Of a stretch of 64,000 bases of DNA, positions 43,426 to 46,840 are shown piece after piece. A program made the position numbers and the translations under genes. How positions within the stretch are numbered: the stretch's first letter is position 1; each line of letters opens with the position of its first letter. Below the pieces are notes generated by a model. That model did no database searches. It saw nothing but the letters and a program-made list of their open reading frames with translations, and was not told where the DNA came from. The stretch lies in contig NZ_CP012154.1 of NCBI RefSeq assembly GCF_001187785.1, forward strand, positions 738,501 to 802,500. The letters run 5' to 3'. This stretch comes from Wenzhouxiangella marina (GTDB lineage Bacteria > Pseudomonadota > Gammaproteobacteria > Xanthomonadales > Wenzhouxiangellaceae).

Positions 43426-43499
43426 TGGGGGATCGTCTAGTGGTAGGACTACGGACTCTGACTCCGTCAGCGGGGGTTCGAATCCCTCTCCCCCAGCCA
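43426..43499 (+). tRNA. tRNA-Gln (anticodon CTG)
   Basis: 74 bases folding as a cloverleaf: acceptor TGGGGGA/TCCCCCA, anticodon stem ACGGA/TCCGT with loop CTCTGAC (anticodon CTG at 43458-43460), T arm GGGGGTTCGAATCCCTC, discriminator G and an encoded CCA. It lies 23 bases after rpsI. Its 3' end is echoed, inverted, in the repeats just downstream. Confidence 0.95.
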
Positions 43500-44084: not shown

Positions 44085-44113
44085 TTGCGGGTGTAGGTCG
44101 ATTGGGCTACACT
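44085..44113 (+). promoter_or_regulatory. Predicted sigma-70 promoter of the dockerin/cohesin-like operon
   Basis: TTGCGG at 44085-44090, exactly 17 bases, then TACACT at 44108-44113. Transcription would start near 44120, giving a leader of about 134 bases before the first gene. Confidence 0.55.
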
Positions 44114-44119
44114 CCGACC

Positions 44120-44243
44120 AACTGAGGCATGTCCTCAGCGCTTTTCGTTGCTTCGAGGGAGCGATCGAAAAGTGCCGGTGAGCCCGATGAGACTCACCCA
44201 AGGCGTGAAGAACATTGATGACTTCGCGGAATTCTTAACAAGA
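44120..44243 (+). promoter_or_regulatory. Structured 5' leader with three hairpins
   Basis: Hairpin 1: CTGAGG/CCTCAG (44122-44127, 44133-44138). Hairpin 2: CTTTTCG/CGAAAAG (44141-44147, 44166-44172) with an inner stem. Hairpin 3: GGTGAG/CTCACC (44177-44182, 44193-44198), possibly extended by GCC/GGC. It precedes a strong ribosome site (AGAGGTG). It does not match a riboswitch class I recognise. Confidence 0.45.
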
Positions 44244-44253
44244 GGTGTTACCG

Positions 44254-45174
44254 ATGAAACACGAAAACCGTCATGGCACGAGCCGCCCTGCTCAGGCCGT
44301 AAAGACCCTGCTGGCGGGCGTTGCCATGTCTGCTCTGCTCGGTCTGTCCATCAACGCTCAGGCGCAGACCTGTACCGTTGGCAACTGGGACGCTGCAACC
44401 GGCGTGTCCGATGCCGATACCGGTACCCAGGACACCGGCGCAACCAGCAACCGTCGTTTCGGCGGCCCCTGCGGTCTTCGCGTTCCCGTGGCTGGTGCCC
44501 CGGCCTTCGTGACCGACAACAGCCCGACCGCTGAAGGCACCTACATCGCCCGCTTCTACGGCTTCTTCGATAGCGCCGGCGCCAGCCCGGTCGTGGTCTT
44601 CGCTGCCGCTGACGGCACAGACACGGACCAGGTCCAGGTCTGGTACAACGTTCCGACCGCCAACGATCTGACCATGCGCGTGTTCCGCGCCGGTGGTTCT
44701 GACGACCTCACCTTTGCCGACGTCGGCACGGGCTGGCACTCGGTCGAACTGGTCTGGGAAGCTGCTGCAGCCGCAGACGTCCGCTTCTCCGTCAATGGCG
44801 CGGCCGACCTGACCGTGACCGCCGACACCAGCGGCATCACCCTGGCTTCGGCTCACCTGGGTAACGTAGACGGCGCCGGTGGCGGCACCTCGATGGACTT
44901 CGATGCCTTCGATTCGCGTCGCATCTCGCGTCCGGGTCGTCTTTGCCCGGGTCTGACCGACGAAGCTCGCGCCGTGCTGCCGGGTGACACCGGAGTTCGC
45001 CTGGCCGTGACCGATGCGCTGGCCATCTTCAATGAATTCGCCACCAACGGCAACAGCCCGGCTGCCGGCATGCCGGACTTCGACGAGAACGGTTCCGTGA
45101 ACCCGACCGACGTGATCGGCGTGTTCAACGCCTTCGCGACCAACCAGAACGAATGTGGCGTAAACATTCTGTAA
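44254..45174 (+). CDS. Secreted protein with C-terminal dockerin-like domain
   Basis: 306 residues from the ATG at 44254, 8 bases after AGAGGTG. There is a long signal peptide (basic first 18 residues, hydrophobic LLAGVAMSALLGLSINAQAQ). Residues 40-225 look like a ConA/LamG-type beta-sandwich (YIARFYGFF, WHSVELVWE, VRFSVNGA). Residues 231-301 resemble type I dockerins: two related segments VTDALAIFNEFATN and PTDVIGVFNAFATN. The second carries a canonical EF-hand loop D275-D286 (DFDENGSVNPTD); the first loop is degenerate. Cysteines at 231 and 301 bracket the module and could form a clasp. No enzyme active site is visible. It is 25 bases upstream of the cohesin-like gene. Confidence 0.75.
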   Translation: MKHENRHGTSRPAQAVKTLLAGVAMSALLGLSINAQAQTCTVGNWDAATGVSDADTGTQDTGATSNRRFGGPCGLRVPVAGAPAFVTDNSPTAEGTYIARFYGFFDSAGASPVVVFAAADGTDTDQVQVWYNVPTANDLTMRVFRAGGSDDLTFADVGTGWHSVELVWEAAAAADVRFSVNGAADLTVTADTSGITLASAHLGNVDGAGGGTSMDFDAFDSRRISRPGRLCPGLTDEARAVLPGDTGVRLAVTDALAIFNEFATNGNSPAAGMPDFDENGSVNPTDVIGVFNAFATNQNECGVNIL

Positions 45175-45199
45175 TCAAGCAATCTATTTGGAGCTGATA

Positions 45200-46759
45200 A
45201 TGAAAACCCTTAAGAACGCATTGTTTTGTGCAGCGGGCGCGATGCTCTTCGCCTCCACTGCGCAGGCTCAAACGTGGGTCTTCGACGACGTGATTGCGGC
45301 CGAAGGTTCCGCCACCGTCGATGTGCCCTGGACCTTCACCGCTGGTGGCGGCGCTCAGGCCAACTCCGTGGATGTGAGCTTCGGCGGCATCCTGACTGGT
45401 GTTGATCTGACCGACTGTCTGCTGGTCGAAAATTCCGATCTGGCCGCCTGTAACGACATCGGTGGCGGCGTGGTCCGTATCGCCTTCACCGGCCTGGGCA
45501 ACCCGGTTGGTGATGCGAACGGTATCCTGCGCTTCACCCTGGACGGTGCCGCCGTCGACGGTGATTCCGCTCCGGTCGACGCTGAGCCGGCTCCGGGTGG
45601 TTCCGATGTGCCGCCGATCATCACCGACGGTTCCGTGACCGTCCAGGGCGTCACCGCGATCCTGAACGTCACCCCGGCCACCATCAACTTCGGTAACCAG
45701 CAGACGGGGACCACTTCAGGCCCCCAGACGGTAACGGTGTCGAATGACGGCACCGACGGTATCGATCTGACCCTGTCCGCGATCAACTTCACCGGCGACT
45801 TCTCGCAGTCCGGTGGTTCCTGCACCCCGACCTCGGTTCTGGCCGACGGCGCGTCCTGCACCATCGACGTCGTGTTCAGCCCGACCGTCGACGGCGCCGC
45901 TGCCGGCTCCGTGGTGGTCGTAAGCGATGCTGCCACCGTGACCAACGACACCGTCACCCTGGATGGCCAGGGCGTTCCGGGCCCGCAGTCGACCCTGACC
46001 GTGACGCCGGATCCGATGGCCTTCGGTGTGGTTGATCTGGGTGCCATGCCGGCCACCGACACCTTCATCGCCGAAAACACCGGTGCTGGCGGTTCCTCGC
46101 TGACCATCTCGGCTGTGGCTCTGGCTACGGGCGCTGAGTTCACCATCACCTCCGATGGTTGCACCGGCACCACCCTGAACGCTGGCGACACCTGCTCGGT
46201 CGGTATCCAGTTCAACTCGGCGGTCAACGGTGTGTTCGCCGATACGGCCACCTTCACCTCCGACGCCAACAACAACCCGACGCCGGCCATCGCCATCACT
46301 GGTGAGGCTGACTCGACGGCTGTGCTGGCCGTGAACCCGCCGTTCGGTCCGGTCAACCTGGGCTTCGGTCCGGCTGGCAGCACCGTCAGTGCCAATGGTT
46401 CGCTGAGCAACAGCGGCTCCGCTGACGGCGCCTTCTCCTGCTCGCTGGGTGGGCCTGACGCCGCCGTGTTCTCGACCAACCCGGCTCCGCTGGCTGGCAC
46501 GGTCACCGCGGGTGGTTCGGTTCCGTTCTCGATCTCCTGCAACATCCCGACCTCTGGCCTGGATGGAGACACCTACAGCGCGACCCTGACCTGCACCAGC
46601 GCAGACGACGCGAACTTCAACGGTACGCACGATCTGAGCTGTGGCGTGGCGAACGCTCCGGCCCTGCCGGTCCCGACCATGCAGCCGTGGGCTCTGGTCC
46701 TGTTCGGCATGCTGATGCTGATGGTCGGTGGTCTGAGCATCCGGTTCTTCCGGGGCTGA
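45200..46759 (+). CDS. Cohesin-like, choice-of-anchor D surface protein with IPTL-CTERM-like tail
   Basis: 519 residues from ATG 45200, after GGAG at 45190-45193. A signal peptide ends AQAQ, like the upstream gene. Residues 25-150 read like a cohesin-type beta-sandwich: AEGSATVDVPWTF, NSVDVSFGG, C...C pair, VVRIAFTGLG, NGILRFTLDG and a closing GSVTVQG strand. Two choice-of-anchor D modules follow (about 153-260 and 268-370), then a third diverged one. The C-terminus PVPTMQPWALVLFGML...RFFRG has PT-x-x-x-W, a hydrophobic span and a basic end, as in IPTL-CTERM sorting signals. It is probably anchored or processed at the surface. The cohesin reading is pattern-based and not proven. Confidence 0.75.
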   Translation: MKTLKNALFCAAGAMLFASTAQAQTWVFDDVIAAEGSATVDVPWTFTAGGGAQANSVDVSFGGILTGVDLTDCLLVENSDLAACNDIGGGVVRIAFTGLGNPVGDANGILRFTLDGAAVDGDSAPVDAEPAPGGSDVPPIITDGSVTVQGVTAILNVTPATINFGNQQTGTTSGPQTVTVSNDGTDGIDLTLSAINFTGDFSQSGGSCTPTSVLADGASCTIDVVFSPTVDGAAAGSVVVVSDAATVTNDTVTLDGQGVPGPQSTLTVTPDPMAFGVVDLGAMPATDTFIAENTGAGGSSLTISAVALATGAEFTITSDGCTGTTLNAGDTCSVGIQFNSAVNGVFADTATFTSDANNNPTPAIAITGEADSTAVLAVNPPFGPVNLGFGPAGSTVSANGSLSNSGSADGAFSCSLGGPDAAVFSTNPAPLAGTVTAGGSVPFSISCNIPTSGLDGDTYSATLTCTSADDANFNGTHDLSCGVANAPALPVPTMQPWALVLFGMLMLMVGGLSIRFFRG

Positions 46760-46805
46760 GTCCTGACCGATTGATGTCCGGGGCTTCCCGGACATCATGA
46801 ACAAG

Positions 46806-46840
46806 AAAAACCGCCGAGGTTACCTCGGCGGTTTTTTTTT
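46806..46840. terminator. Strong rho-independent terminator
   Basis: A 9-bp stem CCGCCGAGG/CCTCGGCGG (46811-46819, 46823-46831) with loop TTA, preceded by A5 and followed by T9. It can act on both strands and separates the cohesin-like gene from the converging HExxH gene. Confidence 0.9.

Follow-up and report, generated by a model that had tools for sequence, protein, structure and literature searches.

According to the excerpts of PMC5244752 and PMC9012536, all domains of life include organisms with non-cellulosomal cohesin and dockerin modules, ANME archaea having many, and the function of such modules is described as unknown or as needing experiments. ANME-2a is reported in this excerpted work to have many cohesin and dockerin domains as well as archaeosortases. 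Here we describe a 64,000-nucleotide stretch of the Wenzhouxiangella marina genome (accession: NZ_CP012154.1, 738,501 bp–802,500 bp; referred to as the window), in which two adjoining genes, designated A and B, encode a putative dockerin protein and a putative cohesin protein respectively.

Like the ANME modules, the Archaeoglobus cohesin (2xdh) and NagJ (2jh2), the A-B locus combines cohesin and dockerin outside a cellulosome. It differs from ANME-1 and ANME-2a, for which the excerpts give tens of copies and some multi-cohesin proteins, in having one matched pair in one operon, and, as far as the same excerpts go, in that the cohesin protein B itself bears a sorting tail. Comparison with cellulosomal pairs (PDB 4uyp, 5nrm, 6kgc and 2vn6) revealed a shared cohesin fold, predicted across the whole B domain, and a dockerin whose two repeats have symmetric contact positions, like the dual-binding dockerins treated in the excerpt of PMC8063739. 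Unlike a cellulosome, which has several cohesins and several dockerin proteins, the window's genome had one of each, with no multi-cohesin scaffoldin and no dockerin on another protein. Cell-anchoring scaffoldins, in the excerpt of PMC11557425, are likewise cohesin proteins with a C-terminal anchor that take up a dockerin protein; that anchor is an SLH, LPxTG or transmembrane tail, whereas the anchor of B is IPTL-CTERM/XrtH-like. B also resembles the choice-of-anchor D and IPTL-CTERM proteins that accompany XrtH (NF012200, TIGR04174, TIGR04177), as it has the domain, a near-threshold tail and XrtH in its genome, and it differs from them by an additional N-terminal cohesin-like domain. An IPTL-CTERM tail has been predicted on a Methylomirabilis S-layer protein in the excerpted part of PMC8671808.

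Four features are new compared to cellulosomes: the modules pair one to one, the anchor is of the exosortase type, no enzyme is apparent and the matched change is rapid. A search of the open-licence literature found no description of this cohesin-dockerin pair, although the review of Peer et al. 2009 may list members of the family. In the same literature, cohesin, dockerin and exosortase appeared together only in the work on ANME archaea, IPTL-CTERM appeared only in the Methylomirabilis work, and nothing was found on Wenzhouxiangella dockerins, on cohesin and dockerin together with PEP-CTERM or on dockerin with choice-of-anchor. For cohesin and dockerin in gammaproteobacteria, the search covered titles and the opening parts of abstracts. 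A search for the names of the order together with dockerin or cohesin returned neither word in any match, among the matches listed.

Organisation of the A-B locus

Gene A (44254–45174, 306 aa) and gene B (45200–46759, 519 aa) were both encoded on the plus strand with a gap of 25 bases between them, in line with the original prediction of two adjoining genes, and ribosome-binding sites were identified by eye. The genes upstream of A, which we take to be those of ribosomal proteins L13 and S9, are followed by a tRNA gene (43426–43496) that lies between them and A. For the common promoter that had been proposed, the candidate is a promoter-like element TTGCGG - 17 - TACACT upstream of A (44085–44113, plus strand; hexamers at 44085–44090 and 44108–44113). 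The form TTGCRG - 17 - TACACT was exactly present in 10 of 16 loci of the genus and one base off in 3 more, but a strict sigma-70 consensus scan found no promoter upstream of A. Behind B there is a strong stem-loop with flanking A and T runs (46806–46836); the scan called it a minus-strand terminator and a T run follows on the plus strand too, which agrees with the terminator expected behind B. The expected structured leader was weak (z -2.14) and had no Rfam match, and the idea of a leader RNA was dropped because the genus alignment contained no conserved leader. Codon usage of the locus revealed nothing decisive.

The secreted protein encoded by A consists of a concanavalin A-like (LamG-like) jelly roll (44365–44931, plus strand; approximately residues 38–226) and a dockerin-like module (44947–45159, plus strand; approximately residues 232–302). 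The AF2 model of the jelly roll had a pLDDT of mostly 84–97, a Foldseek search with the beta-sandwich matched ConA-like folds, and 2 of 26 homologues matched Laminin_G_3 within an E limit of 1, with 3.3e-4 as the best value. The Foldseek rows included clostridial neurotoxin binding domains; this jelly-roll fold is widespread and says nothing on toxicity. A and B matched no enzyme family in Pfam or NCBIfam, which, with the modelled jelly-roll fold of A, fits the original description of the pair as non-enzymatic; A may yet be an enzyme, since its fold is also found in some polysaccharide lyases. Matches to A were present in 33 of 61 genomes, the window's own included, and in 94 of the 398 genomes of the order when partial matches were counted.

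Calcium ligands in both loops are typical of type I dockerins (PF00404), though not strictly required. The second dockerin repeat of the window's A contained an EF-hand calcium loop read from the sequence (DFDENGSVNPTD; 45076–45111, plus strand) and the dockerin region was flanked by cysteines on both sides, confirming the dockerin-like end with EF-hand loop and two cysteines that had been predicted. Its calcium ligands were kept in this second half-repeat only, the first loop being degenerate, and the module is therefore named dockerin-like; other rows of the dockerin alignment had calcium ligands in both loops. A profile of 27 C-terminal modules of A matched PDB dockerins (best 6.8e-7), 11 of 26 homologues matched PF00404 within an E limit of 1, the lowest value being 5.8e-10, and a profile built without the window sequence recovered the window's module with 57.7 bits. 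The window's A alone gave no dockerin match in single-sequence searches of Pfam, NCBIfam and PDB, and an NCBIfam scan of the window's proteins matched neither a cohesin nor a dockerin model. The HMM check proposed for the dockerin thus gave matches with the family profile and with part of the homologues but not with the window's own sequence against Pfam, and the assignment of a putative dockerin to A holds via family profiles. The AF2 model of mature A (pLDDT 82.4, pTM 0.80) placed two helices (214–225 and 246–257), with a spacing of 32 residues, behind a beta-sandwich; the helices correspond to two EF-hand-like loop-helix repeats as in dockerin type I, and the dockerin part of the model was of middling confidence (pLDDT blocks 57–83).

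Two types of dockerin were distinguished by eye in the genus (alignment A1, L039–L054). In the window's type, cysteines frame the pair of repeats on either side and the first loop is remodelled; the other type has a cysteine within the second repeat and, in most members, both calcium loops. Alignment A1 contained 27 of 30 A proteins (L061, L066 and L074 were missed by the cutting rule), A2 contained 26 (L068, with a wrong start, was also left out), A3 contained 26 of 28 (L070 and L074 were too divergent) and A4 contained 9 of 10 (L074 was left out). Seven dockerin-less A relatives from other families (L147–L153) all end directly after the jelly roll with a conserved SRRxTFIG-like or SRRxTYIG motif. 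A small genome of the window's genus also encodes an A without dockerin (L073:5632-6528, plus strand), with no cohesin gene detected nearby; by eye this A has a hydrophobic, IPTL-like C-terminal tail, which matched no NCBIfam model and was not accepted as an IPTL tail.

Analysis of B revealed, behind a signal peptide recognised by eye, a cohesin-like domain (45269–45652, plus strand; residues 24–151), Ig-like choice-of-anchor D domains (45653–46640, plus strand; borders approximate) and an IPTL-CTERM-like sorting tail (46670–46744, plus strand; residues 491–515). The cohesin jelly-roll fold is nine-stranded. A single-chain AF2 model of the cohesin-like domain was confident (pLDDT 94.1, pTM 0.86), and in a VIA-align search with it the best 26 rows were all cohesins, with Z to 13.8 and the cohesin fold extending across the whole domain, as anticipated from the predicted cohesin-like beta-sandwich. 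The family profile of the B domain matched PDB cohesins (best 1.7e-11) and, with E allowed up to 1, 10 of 26 homologues matched PF00963, the best with 1.9e-9. For the window's 9-member type of B, the profile placed cohesin first at E 0.1 and PF00963 was found in 2 of the 9 (best 0.015). The window's domain alone had no Pfam match and no cohesin match in single-sequence NCBIfam and PDB searches, and a profile of 7 B domains from other genera missed it. In the HMM check on the cohesin, the family profile thereby gave matches and the window's domain on its own gave none with Pfam; the assignment of a putative cohesin to B holds via family profiles together with the confident predicted fold.

The Ig-like region of B scored 112.9 bits with NF012200 (cut-off 45) in three stretches and 55.2 bits with PF22544. 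The C-terminal tail scored 17.3 bits with TIGR04174, under the cut-off of 20.5, which was passed by 2 of the 7 homologous B proteins scanned, L069 (22.8) and L064 (29.3). The window's genome encodes XrtH (G000:C1:360278-360742; 202.4 bits, cut-off 86); PF09721 found no exosortase in this genome but the specific XrtH model does match. The sorting tail that had been predicted is IPTL-like and accompanied by XrtH, but below the threshold of its model.

Matched presence, repeat symmetry and correlated divergence

The pairing of A and B is supported, at the level of sequence comparison, by conserved adjacency, matched presence, repeat symmetry and correlated divergence. The window's genome encoded a single dockerin, the next match having E 0.37, and a single cohesin, with no second match at E up to 1; the two adjoin. 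Among the 30 genomes of the window's genus, a dockerin was found in 18, a cohesin in the same 18 and neither in 12; detection is easier in the counted genomes because many of these had supplied sequences for profiles A1 and A3, and this applies to the locus counts likewise. One of the 18 positive genomes (G014) was weak in both modules, in one of the 12 negative genomes (G026) A was cut by a contig end, and G003, G016, G017 and G023 had more cohesin than dockerin matches.

The locus survey covered 80 loci, 76 with A and 4 without, with only 7 dockerin-less relatives from other families. Where a dockerin-bearing A had at least 700 bases downstream (n=63), a cohesin gene was next in 58 and the cohesin was in the same frame in 2 (L055 and L059). 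Cohesin was missed beside the remaining three, of which L058 gave a cohesin match of 2.4e-6 in another search, L135 seems by eye to have a cohesin and L123 had none found beside its A. A cohesin neighbour was found for 0 of 8 dockerin-less A genes, seven of which belong to three other families and do not count as independent cases, the remaining one being L073 of the window's genus.

Three loci encode single-frame proteins of approximately 2000 aa (L055:3756-9713, minus strand; L058:2884-9231, minus strand; L059:5804-11836, plus strand). Their order is cohesin-like, Ig-like, jelly roll, dockerin, a second cohesin-like stretch directly behind the dockerin, more Ig-like domains and FG-GAP-like repeats, the second cohesin-like stretch and the FG-GAP-like repeats being recognised by eye. 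Two or three dockerins per genome were observed in five genomes of the genus (G023, G006, G016, G017 and G028). The contact residues differ among the dockerins read from multi-dockerin genomes, which would insulate parallel systems.

The two half-repeats of each dockerin were compared with one another and with the half-repeats of all other proteins, using 24 of 27 dockerins and, in a larger set, 67 of 68 (L133 was left out). Of 13 positions, the 57 non-redundant dockerins had 7.35 alike within a protein and 2.15 between proteins (p at most 1e-5; the top of 100000 shuffles was 3.21). The agreement within proteins was strongest at loop positions 10, 11, 13, 14, 17, 20 and 21. Loop positions 16 and 19 were at background level and the symmetry is therefore not simply recent duplication of a whole repeat. 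The excerpt of PMC8063739 names positions 10 and 11 as those that determine specificity in the dockerins of cellulosomes. The dockerin of the window's A had 8 of 16 positions alike between its half-repeats. Since both half-repeats bear the same contact residues, two binding orientations are predicted, and the dockerin probably binds in both in most relatives. The symmetry was largely lost in L010 and L055–L061, whose half-repeats are largely unlike and for which single-mode binding is therefore predicted; L040 was also without symmetry.

Pairwise distances were compared between four segments, namely the A jelly roll, the A dockerin, the B cohesin and the rest of B, in 46 pairs from 68 dockerin-bearing A genes; the B body was long enough in 42, and several of the loci are from metagenome bins. 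Within the genus (n=14), dockerin and cohesin distances correlated with r 0.61 (partial 0.59, p 2e-4; jackknife of the raw value 0.54–0.66), compared to -0.23 between the dockerin and its own jelly roll, -0.11 between the cohesin and its own Ig body and 0.48 between the A jelly roll and the rest of B. The dockerin-cohesin partial correlation was 0.53 across the 42 loci and 0.57 in the 28 outside the genus. The separation was cleaner inside the genus, because outside it the cohesin also tracked the jelly roll (partial 0.27, p 8e-4) and the dockerin tracked the B body (0.21, p 0.003). With the dockerins sorted by eye into types I and II on the basis of their cysteines, type I, which is the window's type (n=9), gave r 0.57 (p 0.0014), and the correlation was not significant for type II (n=5; r 0.28, p 0.22). 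A comparison of L045 with L046 showed dockerins 72%, cohesins 41% and jelly rolls 36% alike, and one of L046 with L052 showed the jelly roll 64% and the tail 97% alike, with the dockerin at 37% and the cohesin at 20%. Correlated divergence of this kind could come from the exchange of one continuous piece of DNA or from compensating changes.

A small gene encoding a secreted protein of approximately 150 aa, designated C, was located between A and B in several loci of distant relatives (L062, L063, L064, L065, L066, L067, L068, L069, L070 and others). Its profile retrieved NagJ cohesin-like modules first (E 0.0099 to 0.018) and PF00963 matched 0 of 9 members at E up to 1. As the NagJ matches are weak and PF00963 did not match, C is called cohesin-like only, and its reading by eye as a second cohesin was not adopted. 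In the 20 operons with such an extra gene the dockerin-cohesin partial correlation was 0.67, and the extra cohesin-like domain tracked the dockerin with 0.52 in the same set.

A docking model and its alternatives

We consider it likely that B is a sorted surface socket on which A docks by its dockerin, and that the pair forms a fast-changing specificity cassette. B would be exported, its IPTL tail would be sorted by the exosortase XrtH, and it would be held at the surface with the cohesin outward. A would then be exported and its C-terminal dockerin would bind the B cohesin, presumably in a calcium-dependent manner. The lectin-like jelly roll of A would be displayed non-covalently at the surface, since A would be held there through its dockerin, and would meet its ligand, perhaps a polysaccharide. 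In the DNA, the dockerin that closes A adjoins the cohesin that opens B, and the two may constitute one cassette that changes quickly and in register, and in the window's genus independently of the rest of A and B. An extension of this model, which we regard as possible but doubtful, is that the cassette is swappable and the partner private, with A docking solely on a B from the same lineage and, where a genome has several operons, solely on the one from the same operon; a private A would therefore be neither stolen by neighbours nor mixed with theirs.

The fast, matched divergence across species and the two or three dockerins in five genomes of the genus would also suit a pair that works between cells, in adhesion or kin recognition, instead of as an anchor on one cell. 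This is improbable, as A has no visible anchor besides the dockerin, such that bridging would need the jelly roll to bind a surface, and as A and B are in one apparent operon. There is a similarly slight chance that the folds were inherited and the binding lost, leaving the cohesin-like domain as a beta-sandwich spacer or adhesin and the dockerin-like end as a calcium-stabilised cap; the divergence of the window's members, the degenerate first EF loop of A and the lack of a Pfam dockerin or cohesin match for A or B alone agree with such a loss, but repeat symmetry at contact positions, the lack of a neighbouring cohesin gene beside A genes without dockerin and correlated divergence are not expected without contact. 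That the correlation reflects only recombination of contiguous DNA, the match not being selected, is very unlikely: the two modules do adjoin and, within the genus, their distances do not follow those of the remainder of either gene, but the correlation persists where an extra gene separates A and B, the repeat symmetry is left unexplained, and the B signal peptide located between the modules does not track them, although it is too variable to weigh much.

If A docks on B as a sorted surface socket, a gammaproteobacterial lineage would have a minimal cohesin-dockerin pair that works one to one, with no further dockerin proteins, and XrtH sorting would gain a concrete job in presenting a docking socket. 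If the partner is also private, the pair would be a protein-level self-recognition tag that uses parts of the cellulosome type and depends on an exosortase for its sorting. The at least 57 naturally diverged dockerins, most with a cohesin adjoining, provide material from which the recognition code could be read and orthogonal plug-socket pairs could be drawn, and the role of cohesin and dockerin modules outside cellulosomes becomes testable in one operon.
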